Shown here piece by piece: positions 34,536-61,155 of a stretch of 64,000 nucleotides of DNA. Position 1 is the stretch's first letter; the number at the start of each line of letters is the position of its first letter. The stretch is from positions 1 through 64,000 of IMG/VR virus record IMGVR_UViG_3300020020_000026. One strand, given 5' to 3'. The DNA comes from a virus. The notes below the pieces were generated by a model. That model was not told the DNA's origin. It did not search any database and saw only the letters and a program-made list of their open reading frames with translations. The position numbers and the translations under genes are program-made.

Positions 34536-36628
34536 TATTTAAAGTCCGGAGAATGCGTGCAGTAAACAGTACTCGCGTTTGACGCGAGATAGGAAATTAC
34601 GTCGATCCCGCTAAGCGTCAACGTCGGCTTCACGCCACCGGAAAACTTGTAGGAGCTTCCCCAGGTCGTAATCGTCCCGGCCGCGCCCGGCGAAATGATG
34701 AAGAGGCCTTTTTGTCCAGCCTTGACGTTGGTTGGATTGGCAATGGTCCGCCCGGCACCACCCATCGTCCAGGTGAAATCAAAACCCAACGAAAAATTCG
34801 GCGTGACGGTCGAGGCGCTTTCCGTCAGCGCGACAGGGGCTGCCGCGCCCCACACCGTGTCGATAGACAGATATTTACCCGGCGCGTTGTTCGCTTGATA
34901 TTCCGCGACGGTCGCTATCGGCAGATTCGGATACGGCGCGGCCATCACCCACTGCGATGATGTGCCGTCGTTGTAGTAGATATAGAGCAACCCCGTGTCG
35001 CTCTCCCACCACAGCGCACCGGCTACCGGCGACACTGGTGGCGTGTCGCTGATAACGATTGATGCACCGCCGCTGGACGCTGCCCAAGAGAGCGAGCCAG
35101 CGGTTGCGCCAGCGGTTAGAACCTTGCCGTTGTTTGTCGTGCCGGTTGCAGGGACGTGCAAATTGCCGTCGCCGGTCGGGTGAACGTAATTGTTCGCGCC
35201 GGTCGCAACGCCATCGAGCTTGGTCTTGTCCGCGCCGGTCATGAACCCGGCAGCGCCCGCCGCGACCACGTTGGCGTGGGCCGTCCCGCCGGTCCCGGCA
35301 TGGGACGCAGCGAGTTTCTCGCTGTCGAGTTCCTGGATCGCCGCCTGCACGTCGGTCGCGGCGATGTTGCCAACCGGCGTAGACGGCACAAGGCTTGCTG
35401 ACGAAACAACGCCCGCCGGTCCCTGCGCGCCGACATCGCCCCTTGGAATCGTCAGGTTCAGGGTCTGGGCGGGCGAGGTGCCGGTGATGGTCGAGGCGGC
35501 GGCGCTGCCTGGTGCGCCGGTTGTTACTGTGCCGATGGCCAGCACGTTCGGCGGACCCGTTGCACCTGTGCTGCCGGTCGAGCCGGTGTTGCCGGTGTCG
35601 CCCTTGACGCCCTGAGTGCCCTGCAAGCCGCTTGGGATGCCAAGGTTCAGCGTCTGGTTTGGACTTGTGCCGGTAATGGTCGAGGTCGCAGCACCGCCTG
35701 GCGCGACCGTAGTGACCGTCCCGATGGCCAGCGTATTGGACGGTCCTGCCGGTCCCTGCCCGCCGGTACTGCCGGTCGGCCCTTGAATGCCTTGACTGCC
35801 GGTGTCGCCCTTGACGCCCTGAATGCCCTGCAAGCCACTGGGAATACCAAGGTTGAGGGTCTGGTTCGGGCTGGTGCCGGTGATTGTCGAGGTCGCGGCT
35901 CCACCGGGAGCAACGGTGGTGACGGTGCCGACAGCCAGCGTATTTGATGGTCCTGTCGGTCCCTGCCCGCCGGTACTGCCGGTCGGTCCCGGCTCTCCTT
36001 GCTCTCCCTGCGGCCCGGTATCGCCAGGAATGCCTTGCGGCCCCGTTGGCCCCGGCGGCCCCGGAGAGGCGGCCACCCATTGCGAACTGTTGTCGTCGCT
36101 GTAGAAGATGTACAACTGACCGCTATCGCTCTCCCACCACAGCGAACCGGAAATTGGCGAATCCGGTAGTTCGTCTGAAACCGTGATGGTCGAGCCGCCG
36201 CCGCCGCCAGCGACCCACCCGGCATCCTTCCTGCCATAGATCAGGCCATCGATTGGTGCGTCTTCAACGATGCCCTGCGGGCCTGTCGGCCCTGGCTCTC
36301 CCTGCGGCCCCCTCGGCCCCATATCGCCGGGGATGCCTTGCGGACCCGTCTCGCCTACTGCGCCTTCCGCGCCCGTCTCGCCCATCGGTCCGCGCGGACC
36401 TTGGATCGAGCCACCCAGCACGATTGTATTGGTGTGCAGCGTCGGCACGACCAGAGGCTCGACCGAGACACCTACGGTGGTTTTGAAGCGCGGCGTCGGC
36501 GGCTCAGCCGGGGTCTTAGTTGGGGCACCTACGGTGGTTTTGGAGTGCCGCGTCGGCTCGTCCGGTGGCTTGGTCGAGCCCCCAACGGTGGTCTTGCCCC
36601 TACCCCTTAACCCCTTGCGTTTTGCCAT
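34535..36628 (-). CDS. Collagen-like tail fibre with three tandem modules
   Basis: 697 residues. After a ~20-residue repeat with KTTVG (three copies near the start), there are Gly-X-Y collagen blocks (GPRGPMGETGAEGAVGETG...). Three near-identical ~55-65-residue modules, NTLAVGTVTTVAPGGAATSTITGTSPNQTLNLGIPSG, are linked by collagen pieces, about 206 bp apart in the DNA. A ...SGSLWWESDSGQLYIFYSDD... unit appears twice. This is a long trimeric fibre. Confidence 0.8.
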   Translation of the reverse strand: MAKRKGLRGRGKTTVGGSTKPPDEPTRHSKTTVGAPTKTPAEPPTPRFKTTVGVSVEPLVVPTLHTNTIVLGGSIQGPRGPMGETGAEGAVGETGPQGIPGDMGPRGPQGEPGPTGPQGIVEDAPIDGLIYGRKDAGWVAGGGGGSTITVSDELPDSPISGSLWWESDSGQLYIFYSDDNSSQWVAASPGPPGPTGPQGIPGDTGPQGEQGEPGPTGSTGGQGPTGPSNTLAVGTVTTVAPGGAATSTITGTSPNQTLNLGIPSGLQGIQGVKGDTGSQGIQGPTGSTGGQGPAGPSNTLAIGTVTTVAPGGAATSTITGTSPNQTLNLGIPSGLQGTQGVKGDTGNTGSTGSTGATGPPNVLAIGTVTTGAPGSAAASTITGTSPAQTLNLTIPRGDVGAQGPAGVVSSASLVPSTPVGNIAATDVQAAIQELDSEKLAASHAGTGGTAHANVVAAGAAGFMTGADKTKLDGVATGANNYVHPTGDGNLHVPATGTTNNGKVLTAGATAGSLSWAASSGGASIVISDTPPVSPVAGALWWESDTGLLYIYYNDGTSSQWVMAAPYPNLPIATVAEYQANNAPGKYLSIDTVWGAAAPVALTESASTVTPNFSLGFDFTWTMGGAGRTIANPTNVKAGQKGLFIISPGAAGTITTWGSSYKFSGGVKPTLTLSGIDVISYLASNASTVYCTHSPDFK

Positions 36629-36639
36629 TCGCGCAAAAC

Positions 36640-37542
36640 TTAGTTCTTACTCGCGAGAATGACATCGATGTATTGAATGCTCATCGTGATCGGGTGGGTA
36701 TGACCGTAATTGTTGCCTTGGTAATCCGTGACCATTCCATAAAAGGCGGCAGCGCCACTTACGGCGGACACCGTTAAGTCGGCCCCGAAACCATTTGGGA
36801 TCACATAGTTGTGGGCGTGTCTGGTCATTTCGTTGTAGTCAACGGAGTGATAGCCAACCACGCTCTGCGCCATCACCGATGAGAACGGATAGATGCCCGC
36901 AGCACTGCCACCGGCTCCGCTGACGACGCGCAGCGCCTTGTCGTTCTGCGTCGTGAGCTTGGTCCAAGCAGTCGGGGCCGATGCCTGGTAGAACAGCATG
37001 ACCGTGCCAGCCGGGACCAGCGCCACTCCCGGCGTGCCTTGAATACCCTGCGGACCTTGCGGCCCGGTCGGACCAGTCGGTCCAACGGGGCCAACCGGAC
37101 CCTCTACAGTCGAAGCTGCGCCAACCGGCCCAACGTCGCCAGCGACACCCAAAGTCCAATTGTCGAACTCCCCCGATCCAACCGCACGATCAAGAGAAAC
37201 TTGTAGTTCCTTGACAGCGAATGTCGTGACGAGGCCTTCCATGTAATTGGCAGGCGCGTTTTTCGACACCGCGCGCACGCGGACGCCAGGCGAATAGGCG
37301 AGGTTCTCTTCGTTGAGGACCAGGGTAACGATTCCGGCCGCAGCAATCGTCGCGGTGGTACTGCTGGTCGCCAGAAAGCCCGCACCGTCCGCACCAGCGG
37401 CACCCGGTGTACCAGGCGGCCCCATCGGACCCACCAAGCCCTGAGCGCCGTCGTCACCGGCCTCGCCCTTCGGGCCGCGCGGCCCCTGGAGCGAGCTTCC
37501 AAGGGCGATGGTGTCGGTGAGCGGATTGATTTCTGTGGTCAT
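36640..37542 (-). CDS. Collagen-like tail fibre
   Basis: 300 residues. N-terminus (DTIALGSSLQGPRGPKGEAGDDG) parallels that of the larger fibre (IVLGGSIQGPRGPMGE). Middle beta domain (about 50-135), a second Gly-X-Y piece (GPVGPVGPTGPTGPQGPQGIQG), then a C-terminal tip homologous to the 32526 fibre (LRVVSGAGGSAAG...YGHTHPITMSIQYIDVILASKN). Confidence 0.8.
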   Translation of the reverse strand: MTTEINPLTDTIALGSSLQGPRGPKGEAGDDGAQGLVGPMGPPGTPGAAGADGAGFLATSSTTATIAAAGIVTLVLNEENLAYSPGVRVRAVSKNAPANYMEGLVTTFAVKELQVSLDRAVGSGEFDNWTLGVAGDVGPVGAASTVEGPVGPVGPTGPTGPQGPQGIQGTPGVALVPAGTVMLFYQASAPTAWTKLTTQNDKALRVVSGAGGSAAGIYPFSSVMAQSVVGYHSVDYNEMTRHAHNYVIPNGFGADLTVSAVSGAAAFYGMVTDYQGNNYGHTHPITMSIQYIDVILASKN

Positions 37543-42930: not shown

Positions 42931-44037
42931 TTATGTGCTGACTGTCGGGTCGGGCGGTGGCGATCCTGGCCCTTGCTGCGGGTTTCCAAGCTGGTAGAGC
43001 TTGTCGCCCAGCATCCACGGCAGGACGCACTCAAGCACTGTAATCGTGCCGCCCCTGGTGTCCTGGGTGAAGGTCGCGGTCTGTATCTTCATGCCCATGT
43101 TCAATGGGCACATTGGCGAATAGATCATGACGTTATCGCCGGTCTGCCAAAGCGCGCCACCATCGCGCAGCCAGCCTTGCACCGTGACGTTGCAGCGGAT
43201 TTGCGTGCCGTCAGCCTGCAGCGCCTCGTAGTTGGCGCGCATCTGCGCCTCGGCGGCGTTCTTTGCCGGTTGCTCCAGGACGATCTCCTTGAAGCGATAC
43301 CATCCCTTGAGGGCACCCTTTGTCCTGGCCATGATCGCGTTAACCGCAGCGCCAAACCTGTTGTCGCTAACGGCATATTGCCCGTGCAGCTTGTAGAGGC
43401 TGTACATCAGTTCGTTGGAGAAGATGCACGTCATCTTCAGGATGTTCTGGCCTTCGGTCAGTTGCTGCACGACAGGCATCGAATGTTCGCCAATCAGCAG
43501 CAAGTTGCCGAGATGGTCCGATCCCAGCGTCGCGTTACGCATGCGCGCGACTTTGTCGAGGAAGTCGAACACCAGCTCGCCAGGCTGCGATTGCAGCCGC
43601 TCAAATTTGGTCAGGTCCACCTTGCCGATGACCTTGAGCATTCCGCCTGCATCGGTCACGGCCTTCATGGCCGACTGGATAACGGTCATGTTGTCGAAAT
43701 TATTCTTGTTGTCCTCGCTGGGAATGCTGGACGTAGACGCCGCCCATTGCTTACCGACACCTGACAACTGCACCCCGTGTTCGGTGCCAGCGTAGCCAAC
43801 TTGCCGCTGGGTGATGATTCCGGTCACCGCGAGCTGGCCGCCAAGTCTGATTTCGCACGGGTCGCCAGGTTTGAATTTCAATTCGCGATATAGAAAATTC
43901 GAATGGGTGCCTTCAGCCGCAGTGAACCGGAATGTTGGCCACCCCTCCTGCCACCGATGCTGGACGTAAACCGATTCCCAGTCCTGAAACGATACGCCGC
44001 TAACAGTAAGCTGCGCGACCTCATGCGGGTTCGGCAT
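42931..44037 (-). CDS. Mu gp44-like baseplate hub protein
   Basis: 368 residues. PWESVYVQHRWQEGWPTFRFTAAEG, LKFKPGDPCEIRLGGQLAVTGIITQRQVGYAGTEHGVQLSGVGKQWAAST and QPGELVFDFLDKVARMRNATLGSDHLGNLLLIGEH follow the tail-hub (P2 gpD/Mu gp44) plan. It surrounds the spike and joins the tube. Confidence 0.75.
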   Translation of the reverse strand: MPNPHEVAQLTVSGVSFQDWESVYVQHRWQEGWPTFRFTAAEGTHSNFLYRELKFKPGDPCEIRLGGQLAVTGIITQRQVGYAGTEHGVQLSGVGKQWAASTSSIPSEDNKNNFDNMTVIQSAMKAVTDAGGMLKVIGKVDLTKFERLQSQPGELVFDFLDKVARMRNATLGSDHLGNLLLIGEHSMPVVQQLTEGQNILKMTCIFSNELMYSLYKLHGQYAVSDNRFGAAVNAIMARTKGALKGWYRFKEIVLEQPAKNAAEAQMRANYEALQADGTQIRCNVTVQGWLRDGGALWQTGDNVMIYSPMCPLNMGMKIQTATFTQDTRGGTITVLECVLPWMLGDKLYQLGNPQQGPGSPPPDPTVST

Positions 44038-44038
44038 T

Positions 44039-44710
44039 TCAGAACGCCAGGGCTCGTCCCTCGCGTGGCGCGAAGGCGGGATGCACGACTTTATTCTCTG
44101 CTCTTAACTGGTCGGCCCGCCCTGCGGTGTCGTACAGCCGGTGCGACAGAACCAGGGTCGGACGCGGCTTGGCGAATCGATAGGACAGCATTTGCGGAAG
44201 CGGATGAGCCGTCTGGTACAGGTGGAATGTCACGGCAGCGTGCAGCGTGACCAGCGCTCGATACGCCACCAGCACCATCTCGTCGGCGGCAGTCTCTTCG
44301 GCCGGGTTGAATGCTGCGTTGACCTCGTCCCGCACCTTATCGACATCCTGTCGGCTGACGAACGTCATATCGACAATGTTCATCGACATATGCTGCAAAG
44401 CGAAACAGACGCAGCCGTTCTTGAGCAGTGTCGCGACCAGGGAGTACGGATTTTCCAGAAGAATGCGCTCCCGGATATGATTGAACTCGCTCAGCGTCGC
44501 CCCGGTCGCCCGCGCCAGCTCGAAGCATTCGGACAGCTTTTCACCGATAGTATTGTTGGCGATGTAGCTTTCCGCCCCCGCCTTGATGTCCCCGCAAGCA
44601 CGCCGCAGAGCTGAGCCAGACATTCCCTTCTGGTCGTTCGATGTCGCGAGCAGCAAATCGGCAACAAGAGTTACAATAGCTGCGCCCTCGCTGATGTCCT
44701 GATGGATCAT
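44039..44710 (-). CDS. Hypothetical tail-operon protein
   Basis: 223 residues, helical (MIHQDISEGAAIVTLVADLLLATSNDQKGMSGSALRRACGDIKAGAESYIANNTIGEKLSECFELARATGATL...). It sits between the hub and the gp43-like protein, an extra gene relative to Mu. Overlaps upstream gene by 4 bases. Function unknown. Confidence 0.55.
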   Translation of the reverse strand: MIHQDISEGAAIVTLVADLLLATSNDQKGMSGSALRRACGDIKAGAESYIANNTIGEKLSECFELARATGATLSEFNHIRERILLENPYSLVATLLKNGCVCFALQHMSMNIVDMTFVSRQDVDKVRDEVNAAFNPAEETAADEMVLVAYRALVTLHAAVTFHLYQTAHPLPQMLSYRFAKPRPTLVLSHRLYDTAGRADQLRAENKVVHPAFAPREGRALAF

Positions 44711-45354
44711 GCTCCGACTTGCCCCTGGCTGGCTTCGTGGGCCTTCTTCAGCTCAGACGCGATCCAGCCTTTGTTCGCCTCGTTGAGCTGACTGACCGCA
44801 TAATAGACCCCAGCCTTGCTGTTGCGTTCGCCGGTCGCGGGGGCTTTGCCGTATTCGGTAAAGCTCATATCGAATGAGCAATAGCCACCCTGCCGGTTTT
44901 CCTCCGTGACACGATAGCGCGTGCAGACCGCCTCGATCAGCCCAAGCAGCGGCAACTGAAGAATGGCCGGGCCTTCTGTTTCCAGCGCCAGGATCAGCGC
45001 ATCGCGCGCCGTGATGTAGTTCTTCTTCTGCAAAACACTTTCGCCCTCTCTCGGATAGACGACGATGTAGCCGCGCACGGTGAACTCGCGCTGGCGGCGG
45101 CCCATATCCTCGGCATACGGCAAGTCGCGCTTCGGGAATTCATGCGACACGATGCGACGTGCAGATTCGCGCACTGCTGTATCGACATGAAACCGCGCGT
45201 TGCGAAACTTGGCTGGCATCCACCGGCCGCGCCAGGCCTTGCCGGACTCCAGCTCCAGAATCTTGGTGGCTCTGGCGGGCCTCAACCCTTTGCCGGATGC
45301 GACGGGTTGAGAAAGCTGTTGCGGCTGCATTGCTGGAGGAAGGACTGGAGGCAT
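44707..45354 (-). CDS. DNA-circularisation-type tail protein (Mu gp43-like)
   Basis: 215 residues. GKAWRGRWMPAKFRNARFHVDTAVRESARRIVSHEFPKRDLPYAEDMGRRQREFTVRGYIVVYPREGE is the N-terminal domain of the so-called DNA circularisation protein, a baseplate component in Mu-like tails (gpN). It links the tape measure end to the hub. Confidence 0.75.
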   Translation of the reverse strand: MPPVLPPAMQPQQLSQPVASGKGLRPARATKILELESGKAWRGRWMPAKFRNARFHVDTAVRESARRIVSHEFPKRDLPYAEDMGRRQREFTVRGYIVVYPREGESVLQKKNYITARDALILALETEGPAILQLPLLGLIEAVCTRYRVTEENRQGGYCSFDMSFTEYGKAPATGERNSKAGVYYAVSQLNEANKGWIASELKKAHEASQGQVGA

Positions 45355-45364
45355 GAGGGGTTAC

Positions 45365-47782
45365 CTAGATGTTCTGATACAAATAATTGTCGGCGGTGTC
45401 GTAGGCGTTCGGCCCGCTCTGGGTGTTCTGACCGGCCTCTGATCTTTGCAGCGGCGTGTTCTGGAACAGCTTCGCGCGAGCCGATCCCTTTGGCTTGGCA
45501 GGCGCTCCAACATCCACCTTAACAGTACCGTCAGCCCTAACTGACGTTGTGTCCGAGAGAGCCTTGCGGTCGAGCGCCTCACGGTCCAGGTCGCCCGGCG
45601 TGAATGGCGCGGCTTCCGGCGGTCCCGTGGGAGCATCGCCCGGCGTAAAGACCGGAGCCTCCGGTATCCCGGCGACCTTGGATTCCTGCGCGGCCTTGCT
45701 TTGCGCGTAGCGCTTCGCGCCCTGCGGCGTGAGCTGGGTGTGAAGATGCTTGCCGGTCGCGTAGCCGACTGGATTGCGCACCTCATCTCTGAATTTGTAG
45801 TCCCGGCCCTCGACCATGCCGTGCCTCGCGAATATTTCGCGCTGCTTGGCCATCGCGGCATCGACCTGAGCCGTCGTCCTGGCCCGCGTGTCGAATGCCA
45901 GGGCCTTGGCATGGGCTGAATTCGGGTTTCTCTTTGTCAGCCTGTGATCTGGGCCGCGATAGCCGGATGTCGTCGTCATCCCGGCTTCCTGTACCTCGCC
46001 CATGATCGACTTCAGACCGGCAATCCGGTCCTTCATGCTGCCGGTGAATGGAGCCGAATCAGTTGGAGCTGAAGCTGCGCCACTAGGAGCTGGAGCCGCG
46101 CTCGGAGCCGTGCCGCCACTGCTGGGAGCTGGAGCCGCGCTCGGCGTGCCGCCGCCGCCGCTGGGAGCCGCAGTGTCGCCGCCGGTCGCCGGGGCCGCCG
46201 GTCCGCTCGGAGCTGCCGTTGTGCTGCCGCTGGAGGGTGGCTCGGACGACGGCGAAGAAGGAGCCGCAGTGCCGCCGCTGGTCGGAGCGCCGGTCGGAGC
46301 GCCGCCGGTCGGACTGCCTGCGCCGCTGCCGGTGCCTCCGCCACCAGGTGGCGAATAGCTGGCCTTCTGGACGCCGCCGCCCTGGCTTCCAGTCGAGCGA
46401 TCCTCCATCCGCTCGAAGTAGTTGTTCAGCCTGTCGAGCTGGCCGGTCAGCTTCTCGGTCTGCTCGGTGTTTTGTCCGGTCTCGTCAATCAGCTCGTCGG
46501 TCGTAAAGCTGGCGGGCTGAAGCAGAGGATTCGTCTCGCCGGGCGGCGTGTAGCTTTGCGGGGTCGCGCCCGGCATGTCTGGCTGGGTCGCATCACTGCT
46601 CTTCAAGGCTCCTAGCTTGTTGAGCCCTTGAATAACCGTGATGACCTGGCCAAGCAGCGGGATACCCTTCAGCAATTCAACGAGGTTGACCCCAAGCCCA
46701 GGGAGCTGTTCATCGATGTAGGTGATGCCCCTGCCGATAGCGCCGAAGAGATCATCCGCAAGCCTCAACGCCCCAAGCAACACCGGCAATCCAGCGGAGA
46801 GGGCCGAGAACGTGATGCCCTTCAACTTGAGACTTATTTCGCCCCAGATTTCCGAAACACGTTTACCAGACGCCGCGACCTCCGCCATCTCCCTGGCCTT
46901 CTCAGGGCTAACCGGCTTCAGCTCCAGCTCCATGCCTTCGCGCGTCTGGCCGAAATCTCCCCAGAATTGATTTGCGAGAGCCGCCGCTACGCTCTTGCCC
47001 CAACCGGCTTCCAGGGCTTGCTTCTCTAGCGCTTTGCCGTACTGCGCGATCATCTGCCGCGCCTTGGCGGGCTCGACGGCGGCTAGCTGGTTTACCCAGT
47101 TGGCATCGACGCCCTGGCTGATCAGCTTCTGACGGAGCTGCGAATTATTCTTGTACAAATCGAACTGCGCGGCCTGGATGCCCTGGAAACTTCGAGTGAT
47201 CAACTCGGCCGAATGCCCAAACGCCTTCGCCTGATCCTGTGCATACTTCAGCTCGGCAAAGCTCATGCCCAGCGTGCGCGCCGTCCTGCCAAGCTGGTCC
47301 ATCTCCTTGGCGAACTTGAACACCGATATGCCGTAGGCGACGGCGACCAGGCCGATAGCCGCAACGCCAATGGCAAGCCTGCCAAGGCCGACAACCGCAG
47401 CCTGCGAGACGCCGGGGATATTCTTCATCGACTCGCCAAGGCGGTTAACGCCTTCGGCTGCGTCCCACAGCCCCACCGCCAGCCTGGGCAAACCAGAGAG
47501 GCCTTGCTGGGCCGCGTTCCCCATCTGGGCCAGCGAACGGCCGGTGTCAGCAGCGTTGCGCGACAGGGCGCTCAGCTCTGTGCTGATCGTTCGCAGCCTG
47601 GGTCCAGCGGTCAGTGCTGCGTTACCCAGAGCGGTCGCGCTGGCGGTAGCCTGCGTAAAGCTGGTCGTCATCTGACCGGCGGTCTGGGTCAGGTTCACCA
47701 GCTCGGTGCGAATTTTCGCGAGCCCAGTGGACGCATTGTCCACCAGGTTTACTGTCAATCTTAGTTCTTCAAACTCAGCCAT
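45365..47782 (-). CDS. Tape measure protein 1 with peptidase M15-like C-terminus
   Basis: 805 residues. The N-terminal ~400 residues are a tape-measure type protein: ELRLTVNLVDNASTGLAKIRTELVNLTQTAG, then GLGRLAIGVAAIGLVAVAYGISVFKFAKEM (hydrophobic), and an all-helical middle. A long Pro/Ser/Ala/Gly-rich region (about 470-590) leads to a C-terminal domain with SGYRGPDHRLTKRNPNSAHAKALAFD (His-x6-Asp near 620-630) and HLHTQL (near 677), the zinc site of M15-type D,D/L,D-carboxypeptidases. Clearly paralogous with the next gene upstream. Confidence 0.8.
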   Translation of the reverse strand: MAEFEELRLTVNLVDNASTGLAKIRTELVNLTQTAGQMTTSFTQATASATALGNAALTAGPRLRTISTELSALSRNAADTGRSLAQMGNAAQQGLSGLPRLAVGLWDAAEGVNRLGESMKNIPGVSQAAVVGLGRLAIGVAAIGLVAVAYGISVFKFAKEMDQLGRTARTLGMSFAELKYAQDQAKAFGHSAELITRSFQGIQAAQFDLYKNNSQLRQKLISQGVDANWVNQLAAVEPAKARQMIAQYGKALEKQALEAGWGKSVAAALANQFWGDFGQTREGMELELKPVSPEKAREMAEVAASGKRVSEIWGEISLKLKGITFSALSAGLPVLLGALRLADDLFGAIGRGITYIDEQLPGLGVNLVELLKGIPLLGQVITVIQGLNKLGALKSSDATQPDMPGATPQSYTPPGETNPLLQPASFTTDELIDETGQNTEQTEKLTGQLDRLNNYFERMEDRSTGSQGGGVQKASYSPPGGGGTGSGAGSPTGGAPTGAPTSGGTAAPSSPSSEPPSSGSTTAAPSGPAAPATGGDTAAPSGGGGTPSAAPAPSSGGTAPSAAPAPSGAASAPTDSAPFTGSMKDRIAGLKSIMGEVQEAGMTTTSGYRGPDHRLTKRNPNSAHAKALAFDTRARTTAQVDAAMAKQREIFARHGMVEGRDYKFRDEVRNPVGYATGKHLHTQLTPQGAKRYAQSKAAQESKVAGIPEAPVFTPGDAPTGPPEAAPFTPGDLDREALDRKALSDTTSVRADGTVKVDVGAPAKPKGSARAKLFQNTPLQRSEAGQNTQSGPNAYDTADNYLYQNI

Positions 47783-50628
47783 CAGATTGACATCGCTTCC
47801 GGTTCAGCCACCTTCGTTGTTCTCGAAGTCTCGGTGTCCTTGAACGCACCACTGCCCTCGACCTCGACCTTAGTGCCAGTCGGCCCGGTAACCTCGGCCT
47901 TCAGCTTTCCTTTGACATCCGGCTTCTGCGAATCGGTGAGCGCGCTGCGGTCGAGTGTTGCGCGATCTGGCTCTTTCTTATTTGCAGCGACAGCGGCAGC
48001 GGCGGCGGCTGCGTCGGCGGCGGCGATCTCCTGCTCTCGCTTCTGTCTCCATGCAGCGGAGCCAGCGTAATCCAGATCGTTAAAACGCTCTTTGTTGATA
48101 TTGACGCCAACCCCACCTCGCTCGTAATTCGGGTCTCCCCTGCTGCCCTGGTCGGTGTGGCTTTTAATGACGTTGCTGCCGCCAACCGCTTGATCGACCA
48201 GCTTGTTCATAGCTGCAGCGTAGGCCGGGTCTTTCATCAGCTCTAGATGCTTAGCCAGGTGCCCGTGTTTAACCGGCCCATAGAAGCTCTCGGACGGGCT
48301 TCTTCCCAGTATCATCTCCCTAAGCGTTTTCGGCGGCAGACCTCTCTTCGCACGAGACTCGTTAACCATCTCAGTCCGGTTCATCAGGCTTTCAACAACG
48401 GCTGGACCAGCTCCGGGATTTTCGGCGCTGAGAATCGCACCCACCAATTTTCTGGTTTCCGGGTCTTCCAATTGCTTCTTAAATCCAGCGCGCTTCGCAG
48501 CCAGAAACGCCGCCCCACCACCGCCGCTGGGAGTAGTCGCAACGCCCTCGACCCTAGCGGGACCGGCCTTGTCACCCGTCGCGACGTTGCCTTCCGCCGC
48601 TCGCTTCGCGCGCACCTCCGCGACCGTCGCGTCGCTCGCGTAGCGCAAGTCCATTCCTTTGACGCTGCGCGGCTTGACGCCGTACTGGTCGGCAAACCAT
48701 GCGGTGTTCGTCTTCGGATCGTATGACCCCGGCACGATGGTCATGACGTGACCGCCGGTCTGGCCCTTGGGAGCGCGCCCGCTGTAGCTTGCGATCATGC
48801 TGCCGAAGGGACGGTTCGGATTGTTGATGTCCGCCGCCTTCTGCGCTTCACCCCAATCATTCCAGTTGGTGGCAACCTTGCTGTTCGCAGTCGGCGGCTT
48901 GAAGCCTGCCGACATCACGTACTTGGTGGCGACGATCCCGCAGGCCGGGCCACTCATCTTGTAGCCCTTGGTGTCGAACAGCTTCTTCAGCCCGGCGGTG
49001 TCACCCGCGCGACCCAGCCGCTCGACCTCCTTCATCGTCTCGGGATCGATGCCCTTGCCAGCCTGATCGACCATCCCCGCAGGACCACCAGGACCAGCGG
49101 GACCAGAGGAACCAACCCCATAGCCGCCCGTACTTGCGCCGCCGTAACCTCCTCCGCCGCCGTAGCCGCCGCCTGCGCTGGCACCAATGCCGCCTCCACC
49201 AGCGCCACCACCCGTGCCCTCCATGCGCTCAAAGAAAAGATTGAGCCTTTCGAGCTGACCGGTGTTCCTCTCGGTCTCGGTCGAATTGCGGTCGGTCTCC
49301 TCGCCCAGGGTGAAGCTGGCGCGCTGGAATAGCGGACGCCCTCCACCCTCATCGCCGCCGTCGTAGCTCTGTTTGCGCCAGAACGGTTGCTGGTTCGGGC
49401 GCGTGCGGTTCGGACGAGGCGCGGGTGCGGGCTCCGCGTCGCTCTTTTGACTACCGTACCGAGAGAGCCCGTCAAGCAAAGTGATTGCTGGGCCAAGGCC
49501 CGGCACCAGCTTCAGGATGTCAACGAAGTTGACCCCGATCTTTTTCAGGTGCGCATTGACCCAGCCGATGGCCTTTCCGATGCCGGTAATGATCGGATCG
49601 ATAAGTCTCAGCAACCCCAGCAAAGCCGGAAGACCGGCAGAGAGAGCCGAGAATGTCATCTTCTCCAGCTTGAGACTGATCTCGCCCCAGATAATGGAAA
49701 CCTCTTTGCTCTGGTCCTCGACCCTCTTGTACTCAGCCGCCTTCGCCGGATCGTCAGCCAGCTTGATCGCCAGCTCCATATCCTCGGCGTTCTGCCCGTA
49801 CTCCTGATAAAACTGGTTCATCAGGGCGGCGGCATTGCTTGCGCTCGCGCCCCTTGCCAGTGCCTGCTTCTCAAGCGCCTTGCCATAGCGCGCGATCATC
49901 TCGCGAGCCCTGGTCGGATCGGCCAGCATGAGCTGATTGATCCAGCCCGCATCAACGCCCTGCGCCAGCAACTTCGCCCGGAGCTGAGAATTGTTTTTGT
50001 AGAGGTCGAACTGCGCAGCCTGGATGCCTGCGTAGCTGCGGATAACGCCCTCGGCCGTGTAGCCGAATGAGGTCGCCTGATCTTGCGCGCTCTTCAATTG
50101 GGCAAAGCTGATGCCCAGGGAGCGCGCCGTTCGGCCAAGCTCGACCATCTCTCTTGAGAACCGGAAGACCGACACGCCGTAAGCCGCAATCGCAACGCCA
50201 ACAGCGGCGACGCCAAGAACAACACCGCCGATGGCGAGTACCGCAATCCGCGACGCTGGCACCAGCTCTCCCAGCGCAGAGCCCATGACTTGGACGCCCT
50301 GCGCCGCGTCATACAGGCCGACAGCCATCCGTGGCAGTCCGCCGATTCCGCGATTGACCGAAAGGGCCATCTGAGCCAGCGCCTGGCCGGTCTGGGCGGC
50401 GTGACGCTGCAGATCACGCATCGCCTGATTGGCGGTGCGAACGTGAGGTGCCGCGTTTAGCGCAGCGGTGCCAAAGTTGGTGACACCGCCAGACGCACTT
50501 CGCAGCCCTGTCGCCGCATTCGCCGCCGCTACACCCAGCCCGCCGATCTCACCGCGCAGTCTTGCAAGCCCCGCAGACGCGCTGTCTGCGAGGGTGACGG
50601 TAAGACGTAGTTCTTCAAACTCCGCCAT
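47782..50628 (-). CDS. Tape measure protein 2 with Cys-peptidase-like and glycosidase-like C-terminus
   Basis: 948 residues, N-terminal half homologous to tape measure 1 (MAEFEELRLTVTLADSASAGLARLRGEIGG...; FDLYKNNSQLRAKLLAQGVDAGWINQL). A Gly/Tyr-rich linker (about 480-530) leads to a papain-like segment with GPACGIVATKYVMSAGF (Cys near 562), GGHVMTIVPGSYD (His near 626) and WFADQYG. After it comes LVGAILSAENPGAGPAVVESLMNRTEMV (near 729), similar to wall hydrolases of the lytic-enzyme type. ATG overlaps the end of the frameshifted chaperone. The two-domain C-terminus is inferred. Confidence 0.75.
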   Translation of the reverse strand: MAEFEELRLTVTLADSASAGLARLRGEIGGLGVAAANAATGLRSASGGVTNFGTAALNAAPHVRTANQAMRDLQRHAAQTGQALAQMALSVNRGIGGLPRMAVGLYDAAQGVQVMGSALGELVPASRIAVLAIGGVVLGVAAVGVAIAAYGVSVFRFSREMVELGRTARSLGISFAQLKSAQDQATSFGYTAEGVIRSYAGIQAAQFDLYKNNSQLRAKLLAQGVDAGWINQLMLADPTRAREMIARYGKALEKQALARGASASNAAALMNQFYQEYGQNAEDMELAIKLADDPAKAAEYKRVEDQSKEVSIIWGEISLKLEKMTFSALSAGLPALLGLLRLIDPIITGIGKAIGWVNAHLKKIGVNFVDILKLVPGLGPAITLLDGLSRYGSQKSDAEPAPAPRPNRTRPNQQPFWRKQSYDGGDEGGGRPLFQRASFTLGEETDRNSTETERNTGQLERLNLFFERMEGTGGGAGGGGIGASAGGGYGGGGGYGGASTGGYGVGSSGPAGPGGPAGMVDQAGKGIDPETMKEVERLGRAGDTAGLKKLFDTKGYKMSGPACGIVATKYVMSAGFKPPTANSKVATNWNDWGEAQKAADINNPNRPFGSMIASYSGRAPKGQTGGHVMTIVPGSYDPKTNTAWFADQYGVKPRSVKGMDLRYASDATVAEVRAKRAAEGNVATGDKAGPARVEGVATTPSGGGGAAFLAAKRAGFKKQLEDPETRKLVGAILSAENPGAGPAVVESLMNRTEMVNESRAKRGLPPKTLREMILGRSPSESFYGPVKHGHLAKHLELMKDPAYAAAMNKLVDQAVGGSNVIKSHTDQGSRGDPNYERGGVGVNINKERFNDLDYAGSAAWRQKREQEIAAADAAAAAAAVAANKKEPDRATLDRSALTDSQKPDVKGKLKAEVTGPTGTKVEVEGSGAFKDTETSRTTKVAEPEAMSI

Positions 50629-50805
50629 CGTCCATCGTCGCGCGCTCGCGTTTCTTCTGATGCGCTAGTTCGATGGTGCGCTCCAGGTGGACGCGAACCT
50701 CCGATGCAGGCATCTCAAGAAAAACGACGGGCGAGATTTTGTAGAAGTCAGCGAGCCGATAGCAGTCGAGGACCGTAGTCCCTACCACGCTGTCGGGTCC
50801 GGGAT
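50615..50805 (-). CDS. -1 frameshift extension of the tail assembly chaperone
   Basis: In the -1 phase after the slippery T7 the frame reads YPGPDSVVGTTVLDCYRLADF, then YKISPVVFLEMPASEVRVHLERTIELAHQKKRERATMDDGGV and a stop at 50617-50615, inside the tape measure 2 start. The segment fills the otherwise empty gap between the chaperone and tape measure genes. This is the conserved arrangement of tail chaperones (lambda G/GT, P2 E/E'). Confidence 0.75.
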
Positions 50806-51207
50806 AAAAAAACCGCGTAACCGATAGGCGCAGCTATTCCAGTCCCGTGGGTCCATCGCCTCGATGAACGGAGGTAGAATGCCGGATAGCGCCGACATCA
50901 TCGTCGTCATCTTGCGCTCCAGGATGACAACGTCGCCGTCCTGGTTGACGTGACACGGATTGCCATAGCGGTTGATGTCGCCGCCGGTCGGCTCGCGGAA
51001 CGACAGCTCATGCACCGTCTCCGCACCCTGGCGGACGCCGCGATGCAACAGCTTCACCTTGACCGGCCAAAGGTCTTTCGGCTGCTCAAGAACTTCCGGC
51101 TCTTCCGGCATCGGAGGCAGTTGATGCACGGGCTCGGGCGCGGGCGTCTCGGGGAGAGGCTCGGCGCGTTGCTTGACGAACCCCTCCCGGTTGCTTGGCT
51201 TGTTCAT
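50782..51207 (-). CDS. Tail assembly chaperone (Mu gp41/P2 E type)
   Basis: 141 residues. After a disordered Pro/Glu-rich start, the core is WPVKVKLLHRGVRQGAETVHELSFREPTGGDINRYG, then VILERKMTTMMSALSGILPPFIEAMDPRDWNSCAYRLRGFF, as in tail assembly chaperones of Mu/P2-like phages. It binds the tape measure before tube assembly. Near its 3' end the slippery T7 allows a longer product (about 197 residues). Confidence 0.8.
   Translation of the reverse strand: MNKPSNREGFVKQRAEPLPETPAPEPVHQLPPMPEEPEVLEQPKDLWPVKVKLLHRGVRQGAETVHELSFREPTGGDINRYGNPCHVNQDGDVVILERKMTTMMSALSGILPPFIEAMDPRDWNSCAYRLRGFFIPDPTAW
50806..50812 (-). other. Slippery T7 for programmed -1 frameshift
   Basis: On the minus strand the codons GGT TTT TTT ATC allow slippage TTT TTT back by one base to TTT TTT TAT. 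It lies seven codons before the 0-frame stop and opens a 63-codon extension with no stop. Confidence 0.7.
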
Positions 51208-51231: not shown

Positions 51232-51633
51232 TTATCGAGCGAATTGCTGGACCGGCGACACCGGGTTGTCGATGGCCATCTCCTCGCACCACAGGCCCTC
51301 CCAGCGCACGCGCACCTGGCCGTCGCGGGCGTTGGCTTCAAGCGCCGCCTTGCACGTTGCGCCAATCAGGCTGTACTGCCAACCGTTGGCGAGCTGCGCG
51401 ACGACGTTGACATCCGTGGCCCCGTCGAGGTCTTCGAGGGCGAGCCCCCGCGTTGTCGAGATGTCACCCTCGATGAAAGGCACCCTCGGCAACTCTTGAT
51501 AACCATGAACGCCATCCTGGCCAGCGAGCATCGTCCGCTCGACAGGCGAAGGGCTGACAGTGAAGTTGCCGCGCAGCGCCATCATCTGCGAGCCAACGTA
51601 CAGGTATGCAATACCCGCGAATCTCTGTGCGAT
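51232..51633 (-). CDS. Tail tube protein (Mu gpM-like), probable ATC start
   Basis: 133 residues. The leader is TAGGAGGCTACA then ATC GCA CAG AGA TTC GCG, with AGGAGG five bases before ATC and an in-frame TAG just before. The encoded N-terminus, (M)AQRFAGIAYLYVGSQMMALRGNFTVSPSPVERTMLAGQDGVHGYQELPRVPFIEG, is the conserved tail-tube start. The first ATG in frame (51585) would remove it. The tube forms the DNA channel inside the sheath. Confidence 0.75.
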   Translation of the reverse strand: MAQRFAGIAYLYVGSQMMALRGNFTVSPSPVERTMLAGQDGVHGYQELPRVPFIEGDISTTRGLALEDLDGATDVNVVAQLANGWQYSLIGATCKAALEANARDGQVRVRWEGLWCEEMAIDNPVSPVQQFAR

Positions 51634-51684: not shown

Positions 51685-53253
51685 TTAACCCGCGCCACCG
51701 GCAGCAAGACGAACACCAGCTTCGCCGATGTCTCGGTCTACCCCACGGTCGTACTGGAGGCGGAACTGACTTAACACGGCAAACACACGTAATTGGTTAA
51801 TCAGGTCCGGTGGATAGAGGACGTTGACGCGATTTGGGTTGTTCGGATCGCGCTCGACAATCAGGTTGTTCTTGAACGCGCGGGTGTCCTCGACCAGCCC
51901 GTTGTACTCATCCATCCGGTATTCCGCGACCAGTTCGGCCTTGAGAATGCCCGGCGTGACGATGGCCTGGCCGGGGCCGAAGCGGGTGCCGTCGTTGGCC
52001 AGCTTGTGCCTCGGGAATTTCGAGGTGATCGCCTGACGCTGATTGCGCATCAAGCGGGCGAGCGTCGCCAGCGTTGTCACCAGCTCGTAGGCGTCGTCGC
52101 CCTGGCCGTACAGGTTGAGCTGGTAGGTCGTCGTTTCCCGAAGGATCATCGGGGCACCTTCGCTGCCCATCTCCTGGGTCGCGATGCCGTAGCCTGCGAG
52201 AGTGTTCAGCTCCTGCCGGTTAAAGCGTTCGTGCAGCGGCGGGGCCAGGATGCCGGTGAGCGCCAGCGTCTGCAGCGGGCGCGCGGGATCGTTGGTCAGG
52301 CCGCGAGCGGCCTTGGCTGTGTAGGCCGCCGTCCACTCGTAGACCGGCGACGGGGCATCCAGCTCGACGCCCATGATGGAGGTCACGCCGGAATTCCTGG
52401 TTTCGCCAAACGCGATCATGCTGGCGTAGTCGCCGCGCTTGGCCGAGAAGATGTGACCATAGAGCTGGCGCATCCAGCCCCAGCGGCCACTGTCACCGAA
52501 ACCGTACTCGGTTTCCCAGGCGTTCAGGCTGGTGCTGTCGGTGAACGGCAGAGCAACGTATTCGAAATTGCGTTCGCCAAGATTGGAGATCGCAGTATCG
52601 AAAACCGGCACGCTCGCGCCGCCTGACATCATGCCAAGGGTGGAATAGGCGACGGTGATACCCTTCGGAAGCTCTTCGCTGCCGATGCGGCCGTAGTGGC
52701 TGTCGCGCATATCGATGTCGTTGCCGGAAGTGCCCTTCCAATTGCACGTCAACGTGCAAACGGTCGGGCCACCCACCGATGTCACCGGCAGATCGAAGTC
52801 CTCGTTGATCGCGGCGGAGATCGCGACATGGATTTGGTTGACGGTGTCGGCCGCGCCGATGTTGACCGGCACATGGTGGCCGCCGATGTAGAGGTGGATG
52901 GTTCCCGCCTCATGGCCACCCGCGTCCGCCGTCACGGTAATCGTGCCCGTGGCTGGGGTGCCAGCGACAGGCTCCGCGACCGGAAGGCCCCAGACTTCGT
53001 GCGCGAAATTGTTGGCGAAGAACGCCTGGAACATCAGCGCCAGGTGCGAGCCCTGGCCAAACTGCTTGTTGGCCTGGGCCTGCGTGCCAATCGGAATCGG
53101 CACATTTGGCACGCCCACGCCATCGGCGGTCATGATGCCGACAAGCAGGGCGGGCTGGCGGATCGTCCAGATGCCAGCCTTGGATGGATCGACCTCCACC
53201 CAGTAGAGCGGCAATTTCCAGTTAGCGGGAATACCGGCGAAAGAGACGGGCAT
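51685..53253 (-). CDS. Tail sheath protein (Mu gpL-like)
   Basis: 522 residues, MPVSFAGIPANWKLPLYWVEVDPSKAG, VPIPIGTQAQANKQFGQGSHLALMFQAFFANNFAHEVWGLPVAEP and the C-terminal VLSQFRLQYDRGVDRDIGEAG fit Mu-type contractile sheaths. This gene is the best evidence that the phage is a myovirus. CAAGGAGAG precedes its ATG. Confidence 0.85.
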   Translation of the reverse strand: MPVSFAGIPANWKLPLYWVEVDPSKAGIWTIRQPALLVGIMTADGVGVPNVPIPIGTQAQANKQFGQGSHLALMFQAFFANNFAHEVWGLPVAEPVAGTPATGTITVTADAGGHEAGTIHLYIGGHHVPVNIGAADTVNQIHVAISAAINEDFDLPVTSVGGPTVCTLTCNWKGTSGNDIDMRDSHYGRIGSEELPKGITVAYSTLGMMSGGASVPVFDTAISNLGERNFEYVALPFTDSTSLNAWETEYGFGDSGRWGWMRQLYGHIFSAKRGDYASMIAFGETRNSGVTSIMGVELDAPSPVYEWTAAYTAKAARGLTNDPARPLQTLALTGILAPPLHERFNRQELNTLAGYGIATQEMGSEGAPMILRETTTYQLNLYGQGDDAYELVTTLATLARLMRNQRQAITSKFPRHKLANDGTRFGPGQAIVTPGILKAELVAEYRMDEYNGLVEDTRAFKNNLIVERDPNNPNRVNVLYPPDLINQLRVFAVLSQFRLQYDRGVDRDIGEAGVRLAAGGAG

Positions 53254-55755: not shown

Positions 55756-57168
55756 CTACCTCGCCTCAATTTGGAACTGTTCAAAGAAGTCGCGCATCTG
55801 CAGCGGCGGCCCTTCCCGGCCATCCGCCAGGATCGGGATCGCGGTGAAATTGGCGCGGTCGATCTGCCACTTCTGGATCATGCCGGAAGCACCGGCCGGT
55901 CCCCGCTCGCCCTTCTCGCCAGCGAAGCCGCGCTCGCCCTTCGGACCCATCTTCCCCTGGCTTACCAGGAGCTGCCAGCCTGGGCCGGGGCACGGCCCTG
56001 GGGACGCCGTCTTGGCAATGAACGAAGAGCCATTGACAGCCACGATGTCCAACTCTTTGTAAGTTTCCGAATCGGAGAACAGCCCGCGAACGCGAGGGGA
56101 ACATCCGTCCACGCCCCCGCGCGCGAGGCATACCCAATCCTTGCCGCTTTCCGGCGGTTCGGCGGTGTCCTTGGTCGCCTGGTAGGTCGCCCCGGACTTG
56201 GTGACGACGTTCCCCGCATAATGAACGCCCGGCTCCCAGACTTTGACGGACGGCAGCATGCCGACAGGGCCACGCTCGCCGCGCTCACCGGGTTGGCCGG
56301 GCTCCCCGCGCGCACCGGGCAACCCCGGCTCGCCACGCAAGCCCATTTTCCCGATTACGCCGGGCAGGCCCTGATCGCCTTTCTCGCCTTTCTCGCCACG
56401 TTCGCCCTTGATGCTTAAGCCGGGCAGGCCCTGCTCGCCGCGATCCCCCTTCTCGCCGCGCTCGCCGGGTCCGCCCTGAAGGCCCTGGTCGCCCTTGACG
56501 CTGAGCCCCGGAATGCCGGGCTCACCCCGGTCACCCTTTTCGCCCCTCTCGCCCCTCTCACCGGCCGGTCCCTTGATGCTGAGCCCCGTATCGCCTTTGA
56601 TGGTCAGCCCCGGCTCGCCCCTCGGGCCGCGCTCTCCCTGCTTGCCCATGAGCCCCGGAGGCCCCGCTTCGCCCCGGTCGCCACGCTCGCCCTTGATCGA
56701 CAGGCCTGGTGAACCCTGATCGCCCTGCGGTCCCCGCTCGCCCTTCTCGCCGATCAAACCCTGGAGGCCCTGCGGCCCCGCCTGCCCGTCTATTCCGGCT
56801 GGCCCTTCCGGACCTACCGGCCCTGGCTCGCCGCGCTCTCCCTGGGCACCCGGCAGCCCCTGGGGGCCGATCTCGCCAGGATTTCCAGGCGCACCGTCTG
56901 CACCGGACTTGATGGTCGCAAGCTTCTCGCCCAGCGCCCGGTCAACCTTGGCCTGCAGATCGACAACGATGGCCTTCAGCTCGGCCACGGTCGCCCGCGC
57001 CTGCGCCTCGATCAGCTCGCGCTCCTTGTCCCACTGCTTGCGGTGCTGGTGGATGACGTGAGCGAGCGCGTCGCGCAGCGCGTCAATGGTCGCTTCTGGT
57101 ATGTGCATCGGCGCGGGAAAGGGCCTCGGTGAGGGAGGTGATGATTCTGAGTTCTGTGGCAACGGCAT
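55756..57168 (-). CDS. Collagen-like head-region protein with CBM
   Basis: 470 residues. A helical start (TIDALRDALAHVIHQHRKQWDKERELIEAQARATVAELKAIVVDLQAKVDRAL) would trimerise the protein. Residues about 88-300 are Gly-X-Y collagen repeats. Next comes a CBM5/12-like module (VKVWEPGVHYAGNVVTKSGATYQATKDTAEPPESGKDWVCLARG), a second similar stretch, another collagen piece, and a beta tail. It starts inside the portal 3' end and sits between portal and connectors, a position that suggests a head fibre or neck fibre that sticks to carbohydrate. Confidence 0.75.
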   Translation of the reverse strand: MPLPQNSESSPPSPRPFPAPMHIPEATIDALRDALAHVIHQHRKQWDKERELIEAQARATVAELKAIVVDLQAKVDRALGEKLATIKSGADGAPGNPGEIGPQGLPGAQGERGEPGPVGPEGPAGIDGQAGPQGLQGLIGEKGERGPQGDQGSPGLSIKGERGDRGEAGPPGLMGKQGERGPRGEPGLTIKGDTGLSIKGPAGERGERGEKGDRGEPGIPGLSVKGDQGLQGGPGERGEKGDRGEQGLPGLSIKGERGEKGEKGDQGLPGVIGKMGLRGEPGLPGARGEPGQPGERGERGPVGMLPSVKVWEPGVHYAGNVVTKSGATYQATKDTAEPPESGKDWVCLARGGVDGCSPRVRGLFSDSETYKELDIVAVNGSSFIAKTASPGPCPGPGWQLLVSQGKMGPKGERGFAGEKGERGPAGASGMIQKWQIDRANFTAIPILADGREGPPLQMRDFFEQFQIEAR

Positions 57169-59058: not shown

Positions 59059-61155
59059 CTACCAGGTCACGCCCGCCACGAATGAAACGACACCAGCGCG
59101 GCGCATCGTCCAGTTCATCGGCAGGATGAGTCGAAGCGCCAGTGAATCCGTCTGGAACATCGAGACGGCGGGAGCCGCGACAACGCCAGGGGTTCCGGCG
59201 GTGCCGATATGCGCAGGCGAGGTGTCCTCCATGTGTAGCGTAGCTTGGTCGCTGATCTCAAACCTCGGATTGTCGCCAGAGATCGAGACGTAGTCGGCCG
59301 CGTCGAGGCACAGCACCGTACCGAGAGGCACGGTCCCGCTCTTGATCACCGGATAGCCCATCAACCGATTGTTGTTGATGTCCGTTGCGAACGGGAAGAG
59401 CCCGCCCGGCACCGGAGGCTGCACGAACCCAATCGACAGCGCCTGTTGCGGGTTCATGATGAAGACCATCGAGCGGACGTTGCCGTTGGTCGCCGTCAGG
59501 ATCGAACCGGACAGCCCCTTGAGATCGCCAACGAGGGCGTTGAAGCCGCCGCCTGCGGTCGGGGTCAGGCCGACAACGCCGTTGCGCAGACCGGCGGGAC
59601 GAATGGTCGTCGCCGGGTTGGCGTCGAGCAGGATGGTGTCGATGGCGATCTGCGTGTCTTCCTGGATGGCATTGCGCAGAAGGCCTTCGATGGCGGGCAC
59701 GGAATGCTCGTCCATCTCCCTCGTCCAAGTCGTAATCACGGCCATCTTTTTCGGAACCATCGAAGTGGTCGTGAACGCGGCCTGACGCACCGGGATCGGA
59801 GCGCCTTCACCGACGAACGAACCGGCCACGGTCGGCGTCGCCGCTCGGGTCGGCACGTTGATCTTGCCGTTGCGGCCGAAGCTGAGCTTGAGGCCCATCG
59901 CTGACAGCGACGGGTAGACCGAAGACGGCAGAAGGCTCGGCATCAGATCGGCATTGATCTGTTGCACCAGCTCGGCCGCCCAGCCAGCGACGGTCGTCAT
60001 CGCCGGGGCGGTCGCCGCCTTCAGCGTGAGATCGCAGATGACCTTGGTGGCTTCATCTTCGCCGTAAATCTTCTGGCGAATCTGATCGATGGTAAAGCCA
60101 GCGAAGTCCGGAGCCTTGGACAGCGCCTTGATCGTACCGGCGCGGACCAGGAACTCGATGGGGTCGATCTTCTTGGCCGGGAGGTTGAACGGCCGGGCGC
60201 TAGCGGTCGCGCGCAGGGCCACCTTGGTCTTGCCGTTGCCGTTGCCGTTGTCCTCGCTGGACTGTGCGGCCATCTGGGCCTCCGAATCTTCCAGGGCCTT
60301 GAGCGCCAGCACCTGATCGCTGATGCGCTTGTTCAGCTCCTGGGTGGTCGCGAGATCGGCCTCGGTGACGTTCTCGTCGTCAACCTTTTCCAGATGCTCG
60401 TTCAGTTGGTCCCGCAGCGCGACAATGCGCTGTTGGGTAGCTTCGATGCGTTTCGTAAGGGGTGACATTGTCACTGTCCTTGTGTTCGGTTTCGACTTGG
60501 CTTGCCCGCCGTTGAGACCGCGACGTTCGGCGCTCTGGTCTTTCTCGTTGCCATGCCCGGCAAAGACCATTGCGACGGTGTCGCGGGAAATCTTGAGCGA
60601 TTTTGCAATCGCCAGTGCGTTCGGGTTGGCCGGGATCGCGACCAGGGAGGTCTCGACCAGCTCGGCCTGTTTGAATCGGTAGCCGCCGCTGCCGTCCTTG
60701 GTGATCGGCTCCGCCACTCGCGGCAGGAAGCCGACGCTGACCGCCTTCAGAATGTCGGCCTCGATCAGCCGGTGGATTTCATCGATCCGTTCGGAGGTGC
60801 CCAGCGGCGCTAGGCGCAGCTCGCCGCGCAGCTCGCCGTCCGCGACTTTCAGATTGTGCCACTTGCCGATTGGAAAGTTCGGATTGTGGTTGAACAGCGC
60901 GACCGGATTGCGCTTGAAGTTGACCAAGTCCCAGCCCTCGGCCTCGATGATGTCGCCCATGCGGTCCGGGCTAGCGTCCGACAGGATGAAGGTCAGCCCG
61001 CCGACATCGGAAACGTGCGTCTTGCGGACGACCTTCTTGGCGGCGCGCTCGTCCCATTGCAGGGCGCACGCCTCCTCGTCCCCGCCATCGCTGACGCAAT
61101 GCTCCATGAATTCTTCGCGGGTATCGAAATCGTCCGGAGAGGCTTTGGTCTTCAT
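59059..61155 (-). CDS. Prohead protease-major capsid fusion
   Basis: 698 residues. Residues about 45-200 are an S78-type prohead protease: FNHN (His90), ADILKAVSVGF (Ser140), VETSLVAIPANPNAL. From Met230 the protein is an HK97-type major capsid protein: a delta domain coiled coil (MSPLTKRIEATQQRIVALRDQLNEHLEKV) and then the shell part ending VSFVAGVTW. An AAGGA eight bases before the ATG at 60468 could give capsid alone. In most relatives the two are separate genes. Confidence 0.85.
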   Translation of the reverse strand: MKTKASPDDFDTREEFMEHCVSDGGDEEACALQWDERAAKKVVRKTHVSDVGGLTFILSDASPDRMGDIIEAEGWDLVNFKRNPVALFNHNPNFPIGKWHNLKVADGELRGELRLAPLGTSERIDEIHRLIEADILKAVSVGFLPRVAEPITKDGSGGYRFKQAELVETSLVAIPANPNALAIAKSLKISRDTVAMVFAGHGNEKDQSAERRGLNGGQAKSKPNTRTVTMSPLTKRIEATQQRIVALRDQLNEHLEKVDDENVTEADLATTQELNKRISDQVLALKALEDSEAQMAAQSSEDNGNGNGKTKVALRATASARPFNLPAKKIDPIEFLVRAGTIKALSKAPDFAGFTIDQIRQKIYGEDEATKVICDLTLKAATAPAMTTVAGWAAELVQQINADLMPSLLPSSVYPSLSAMGLKLSFGRNGKINVPTRAATPTVAGSFVGEGAPIPVRQAAFTTTSMVPKKMAVITTWTREMDEHSVPAIEGLLRNAIQEDTQIAIDTILLDANPATTIRPAGLRNGVVGLTPTAGGGFNALVGDLKGLSGSILTATNGNVRSMVFIMNPQQALSIGFVQPPVPGGLFPFATDINNNRLMGYPVIKSGTVPLGTVLCLDAADYVSISGDNPRFEISDQATLHMEDTSPAHIGTAGTPGVVAAPAVSMFQTDSLALRLILPMNWTMRRAGVVSFVAGVTW

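Follow-up and report, generated by a model that had tools for sequence, protein, structure and literature searches.

Tandem tape measure paralogues with divided C-terminal motifs and different muralytic-type cassettes in uncultivated contractile-tailed phages

Introduction

The tape measure protein is usually viewed as a ruler encoded by one gene, which raises the question of what a phage would do with two such genes lying side by side. We examined a 64,000-nucleotide stretch of viral DNA (the window), part of an 82,286-base IMG/VR virus record, in which a contractile-tail module lies on the minus strand. A sequence-only reading of the window had described two tandem tape measure paralogues with a common N-terminal half and different wall-degrading tails. 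It had proposed that the pair could mean mixed assembly, variable tail length, or the conversion of one copy into a dedicated entry enzyme.

Two intact tape measure genes lie in tandem

The pair consists of adjacent intact open reading frames (ORFs) that, according to their coordinates, overlap by 1 base at 47782. The genes and their common blocks are as follows.

47782..50628, minus strand: tape measure paralogue 1, upstream, intact ORF of 948 aa, motif I type (motifs are defined below)
45365..47782, minus strand: tape measure paralogue 2, downstream, intact ORF of 805 aa, motif II type
49219..50628, minus strand: common N-terminal block of paralogue 1, spanning residues 1-470 and including a hydrophobic segment around residues 130-150
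46403..47782, minus strand: common N-terminal block of paralogue 2, spanning residues 1-460 and including a hydrophobic segment around residues 136-154

In a BLASTP comparison, 246 of 473 aligned positions were identical (52%, E 7e-134) over residues ~1-470 and 1-460, respectively, with a single 1-residue gap within the first 395 aligned residues. The segments MAEFEELRLTV, FDLYKNNSQLR and WGEISLKL, pointed out earlier as common to the two proteins, were found in both, and the claim of two tandem paralogues with a common N-terminal half was confirmed. Since identity at the DNA level is 66-74%, the duplication is old. The C-terminal halves are unrelated, apart from a linker block and a few residues near the C-terminus (DR..LDR.AL.D).

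Both proteins matched PHROG tape measure families (E 7e-7 to 3e-5). A Pfam search returned no hit for either protein itself, but the Pfam tape measure models (TMP_2/TMP_3/TMP_N) matched relatives of both paralogue classes. In addition, both genes are placed between a frameshifted tail chaperone gene and the DNA-circulation/hub genes. The PHROG matches, the Pfam matches of the relatives and the gene position support the assignment of both paralogues as tape measure proteins.

The pair sits in a Mu/SfV-type tail module

The genes flanking the pair are the following.

51685..53253, minus strand: tail sheath, used as survey anchor (phrog_165, E 1.6e-157)
51232..51585, minus strand: tail tube (PF10618)
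50782..51207, minus strand: tail assembly chaperone (Phage_TAC_7)
44707..45354, minus strand: N-terminal half of a DNA-circulation/hub protein encoded by a split gene (PF07157; phrog_184)
44039..44710, minus strand: C-terminal half of the same split gene (phrog_184 positions 298-403)
42931..44037, minus strand: Mu gpP-like baseplate hub (profile matches)

The chaperone gene carries a T TTT TTA slippery site at 50805-50811, from which the -1 frame stays open to 50615 and enters the first tape measure gene. A -1 frameshift at TTTTTTA is thus probable, and the gap of exactly 153 nt that separates the chaperone gene from the first tape measure gene in the window and many close relatives is consistent with a conserved programmed frameshift. 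Among tandem relatives, the order sheath, tube, chaperone, first and second tape measure, DNA-circulation protein is kept. This order, together with the sheath, tube, TAC, DNA-circulation and gpP homologues, fits the contractile tail module of Mu/SfV-type phages (SfV orf11-orf17; Mu gpL, gpN, gpP), which runs from sheath through tube, chaperone, tape measure and DNA-circulation/hub to gpP. The window sheath is up to 45% identical to those of Mu/SfV-type phages and 37.5% identical to that of Mu. The module nevertheless departs from this type, in which one tape measure gene is expected: the window and 27 other distinct loci have two, and the DNA-circulation gene of the window is split. The tape measures are also larger, at ~800-1000 aa with enzyme cassettes compared to 560-611 aa in Mu/SfV-type phages. 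Whereas SfV and Paraburkholderia phage IPK encode the DNA-circulation/hub protein in a single ORF, the window and the relatives with complete context have two.

Several other features of the window were recorded. ORFs at 55756-57168 and 34535-37542 matched collagen-like tail fibre families, and one of these is flanked by the portal and head-tail adaptor genes, where a fibre gene would not usually be expected. The 698-aa protein encoded at 59059-61155 matched a major head protein over most of its length and a head maturation protease N-terminally, and is apparently a fused protease-capsid gene product. Beside the head genes, a 529-aa ORF (61460-63049) had no PHROG match.

Tandem pairs recur among uncultivated relatives

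A tblastn search of INPHARED with both paralogues gave no match; relatives of the pair were found in IMG/VR and in one Bradyrhizobium genome. That first search had used the tape measure itself as its key; the survey was therefore rerun keyed on the sheath with four seeds, and large ORFs were counted between the chaperone and the DNA-circulation gene. After removal of duplicates, the tape measure- and sheath-anchored surveys of uncultivated relatives yielded 28 distinct tandem pairs alongside 54 loci with a single copy, a ratio that is approximate since ten counted loci, the Bradyrhizobium locus and the window included, came from the tape measure-keyed search or are the window itself. About a third of the surveyed uncultivated family thus carries two tape measures. 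The cultured Mu/SfV-type phages checked, SfV and IPK, have a single one. The statement that phages normally have one tape measure holds for these two and for the 54 single-copy relatives, but not for that third. A tree of the sheath requires ~8 changes of state, indicating that the copy number changed repeatedly. No precedent for two paralogous tape measures in one phage was found in the openly licensed PMC papers searched.

One further candidate pair (L105) was rejected, as it reads as one frame-broken single gene. An unusually long single-copy tape measure of 1607 aa (L115:12638-17461) could be a fusion or belong to a long-tailed phage. The Bradyrhizobium locus (L036, Bradyrhizobium sp. SRL28) is a tandem tape measure module within a 907-kb bacterial contig, which suggests a prophage and a possible laboratory source. 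A search of 399 genomes of the host's family returned it as the only strong match, with four marginal ones.

Both copies are full size and under purifying selection

Among close relatives, dN/dS of the N-terminal domain ranged over 0.22-0.28 in copy 1 and over 0.15-0.18 in copy 2, indicating purifying selection on both copies. Each tandem copy is as long as the single-copy tape measures, and the idea that paired copies match in total length, as a ruler constraint, was rejected because their lengths showed no correlation. The pair is not a single ruler split into two pieces, nor does it consist of a gene and its pseudogene. It is scarcely credible that one copy is a decaying duplicate or that the pair is an assembly artefact. 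The second copy of one locus does end early, at 350 aa near the contig end (L005:5451-6503), by truncation or sequencing error, but intact pairs were seen repeatedly, both in many independent contigs and in the Bradyrhizobium genome; this recurrence largely refutes the explanation, and dN/dS lies well below 1.

Two C-terminal motifs are divided between the copies

Single-copy tape measures of the family carry motif I (G.L.VDV.AP.GT.V....G.F; ..KVDV.AP.GT.V) followed by motif II (RQ.QM.PA..GP) close to the extreme C-terminus. The copies of a tandem pair differ: one retains motif I without motif II, and its partner has lost motif I and keeps a motif II-like end. In the window, the corresponding stretches are as follows.

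47827..47910, minus strand: motif I kept in paralogue 1, residues 907-934, GKLKAEVTGPTGTKVEVEGSGAFKDTET; motif II is lost
45449..45532, minus strand: degenerate motif I of paralogue 2, residues 751-778
45368..45448, minus strand: motif II-like extreme C-terminus of paralogue 2, residues 779-805, QRSEAGQNTQSGPNAYDTADNYLYQNI

The split was first seen in 12 pairs. Scoring matrices were trained on single-copy proteins only, and the fixed matrix was then applied to 16 new pairs and 26 single-copy proteins from later scans, with a score of >=15 as the cut-off for presence of both motifs. In the discovery set, both motifs were present in 27/28 single-copy proteins and 0/24 tandem copies (Fisher 6e-14, ignoring relatedness), and the test set gave 24/26 and 0/32 (Fisher 3e-14, likewise ignoring relatedness); the pairs compared are not all independent. 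Over all loci, the counts were 51/54 and 0/56. Motif score differences were opposite in 10 of the 12 discovery pairs (11 with the first matrix, before one mis-registered training window was dropped) and in 13 of the 16 test pairs. Some pairs are less clear: L009 and L036 have a weak motif II in their second copies, motif I reaches no score in either copy of L066, and both copies of the most distant pairs (L194, L200 and L208) have low motif II scores.

Complementary loss of functions after duplication is the general model of subfunctionalization. The tape measure pairs present the same pattern: single-copy relatives hold both motifs, the losses are complementary between the two copies, and both copies are retained, the dN/dS of 0.15-0.28 being consistent with a need for both. 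The openly licensed PMC papers searched contained no description of subfunctionalization of tape measures.

The division could instead be a by-product of the duplication event, with the 3′ end of the upstream copy lost where the copies were joined and the remainder having drifted. Such a joint would leave an upstream copy of motif I type without motif II, as is found in 19 of the 28 pairs. The I-type copy is however downstream in the other 9, so that neither the location of the joint nor operon position explains the split; loss of motif I from the partner is also left unexplained, and purifying selection on both copies speaks against drift. We regard this account as very improbable.

N-terminal halves group by genome, C-terminal halves by position

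The two halves of the proteins differ in their relationships. In the window's clade, the C-terminal (enzyme) halves correspond by position as orthologues: comparison with the tandem locus L004 showed this, with 63% identity over 443 aa between the first copies and 51% over 231 aa between the second copies. Over residues 1-375, in contrast, the window copies are 54% identical to each other and only 44-48% identical to their positional counterparts in L004. Trees of the N-terminal domain, including a 50-row tree, group copies by genome or lineage, and trees forcing all first or all second copies together were rejected (p 3e-6 and 2e-5). This grouping was strongest for residues 238-375 and weaker for 1-237; for the window's own pair, it was strong for residues 238-375 only, residues 1-237 giving no resolution. 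This conflict between the two halves suggests, as the simplest reading, sequence exchange between the copies. Repeated independent duplication with imported C-terminal halves could possibly mimic such exchange, although it would require several position-matched imports. In the wider family, a separate N-domain pair is found in each of the lineages L029, L033, L034, L066, L070, L087/L114 and L118, in some of them next to sisters with a single copy, which implies either that the split arose many times or that a heteromeric ancestor underwent repeated loss and homogenization.

The copies carry different muralytic-type cassettes

The C-terminal halves contain the following predicted domains.

48589..49074, minus strand: Cys/His hydrolase-like cassette of paralogue 1 (putatively CHAP/TIGR02594-like), residues 519-680
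47974..48543, minus strand: third conserved domain of paralogue 1, putatively muralytic, residues 696-885 (from alignment)
45707..46039, minus strand: M15-like zinc peptidase cassette of paralogue 2, residues 582-692, with the motif SAHxxxLAFDTR ... HLHTQ

Searches of the window's C-terminal halves against Pfam, NCBIfam and PDB sequences gave no significant match. The 805-aa protein carries the putative Zn-binding motif S.H(x6)D...H.H, which is invariant in four relatives, and the Peptidase_M15_3 profile matched two relatives only, weakly (E 0.04). AlphaFold modelled the C-terminal half of paralogue 2 well in the M15 region only, and Foldseek matched that region to Hedgehog domains alone, none significantly. 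The Hedgehog domain fold is related to the M15 fold. BLAST links the Cys domain of the 948-aa protein to Cys/His domains of L013, L014, L026 and L030 (E 4e-6 to 3e-4); TIGR02594 is present in five family members, not resolved by member, with no direct match for the 948-aa protein itself. Its C-terminal model was poor (mean pLDDT 54) and returned nothing significant in Foldseek. The third domain had no family match in Pfam, PHROG or PDB, and the glycosidase of the proposed Cys-peptidase-like and glycosidase-like pair is therefore unproven. Lysozymes, amidase, M23, SLT, glucosaminidase and M15 domains all occur at this position among family members. The view of the pair as tandem tape measures with differing wall-degrading cassettes is supported. 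As the phage has a separate endolysin gene at 28437-29069, the cassette enzymes more likely act at entry than at lysis.

In the main rival explanation, only one protein is the ruler, the other being a tape measure-derived enzyme carried as cargo in the tube and ejected during entry. In its favor, both proteins carry muralytic-type cassettes, which differ within the window's pair and between the two classes across the family. On the other hand, both classes keep the N-terminal domain with its hydrophobic segment, match tape measure profiles, equal single tape measures in length and are under purifying selection, and free cargo would not predict reciprocal C-terminal loss. We consider this explanation unlikely, although it deserves to be taken seriously. 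The suggestion of a dedicated entry enzyme carried in the tube is likewise weakened by cassettes and tape measure profile matches in both copies and by the separate endolysin.

A mixed tape measure is the favored explanation

Known tape measures are trimers or, in some phages, perhaps hexamers; their C-terminus is fixed to the hub/spike and their N-terminus lies at the collar (PMC10996793, PMC11042391); trimer versus hexamer is still debated (PMC10996793). The tandem duplication, the N-terminal block kept in both copies, the muralytic-type cassette of each and the C-terminal division are read directly from the genes. On this basis, we think it more probable than not that the products of the two genes are different subunits of a single hetero-oligomeric tape measure. 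In a single-copy phage, the hub and spike would meet both motifs on every chain of the trimer or hexamer. Once the gene was duplicated, each motif would be required on one partner only, making the copies mutually dependent within the same tube. Should the hub require both C-terminal motifs, a pair in which they are divided would have to co-assemble. Sequence exchange would keep the N-terminal blocks compatible as the enzyme halves stay different, and at ejection the mixed bundle would bring the M15-type peptidase of copy 2 together with the Cys-hydrolase and third enzyme of copy 1 to the wall. Here, binding of the hub by motifs I and II and enzyme action at entry are what we infer.

The difference of 143 residues between the two proteins counts against a mixed tape measure. 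It would suit two alternative homomeric tape measures, one type per virion, since the paralogues are full length with different enzymes, and the result would be a mixed virion population. However, the difference is confined to linkers and cassettes, and each copy is without one C-terminal motif found in nearly every single-copy relative, so that neither looks self-sufficient; alternative homomers therefore seem improbable. The same location of the length difference, with the first ~375 residues collinear, leaves variable tail length without support. Among the three readings first offered, mixed assembly is best supported, by the reciprocal motif division, by the conservation and full size of both copies and by N-domains that group by genome, with co-assembly itself a deduction from these.

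A more general proposition seems to us evenly balanced between right and wrong: that tape measures can be obligate hetero-oligomers, in which recurrent tandem duplication divides two C-terminal hub-binding motifs between paralogues, resolving two-conformation (quasi-equivalent) anchoring at the hub, with a different wall hydrolase on each paralogue. The diffocin tape measure, also from a contractile system, is a homotrimer (PMC10996793), as opposed to the heteromer proposed here. Enzyme-bearing tape measures include phiCbK gp95 (CHAP) as well as those of mycobacteriophage TM4, phage T5 (pb2) and phiIPLA35 cited in PMC3556154 and PMC6145125. They likewise have a muralytic-type domain proposed for entry, but are single proteins rather than two paralogues with different cassettes. 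The single tape measures of SfV and IPK end in a motif I-like stretch with PPG.RV. No precedent for a hetero-oligomeric tape measure with divided motifs was found in the searched literature.

The C-terminal region has been divided between paralogues, apparently many times, so that the parts proposed to anchor the tape measure are genetically separated. A tape measure divided in this way would make stoichiometry and anchoring testable, in contrast to the usual view of a one-gene ruler, and a contractile phage could by this means load two different enzyme sets into one tail.
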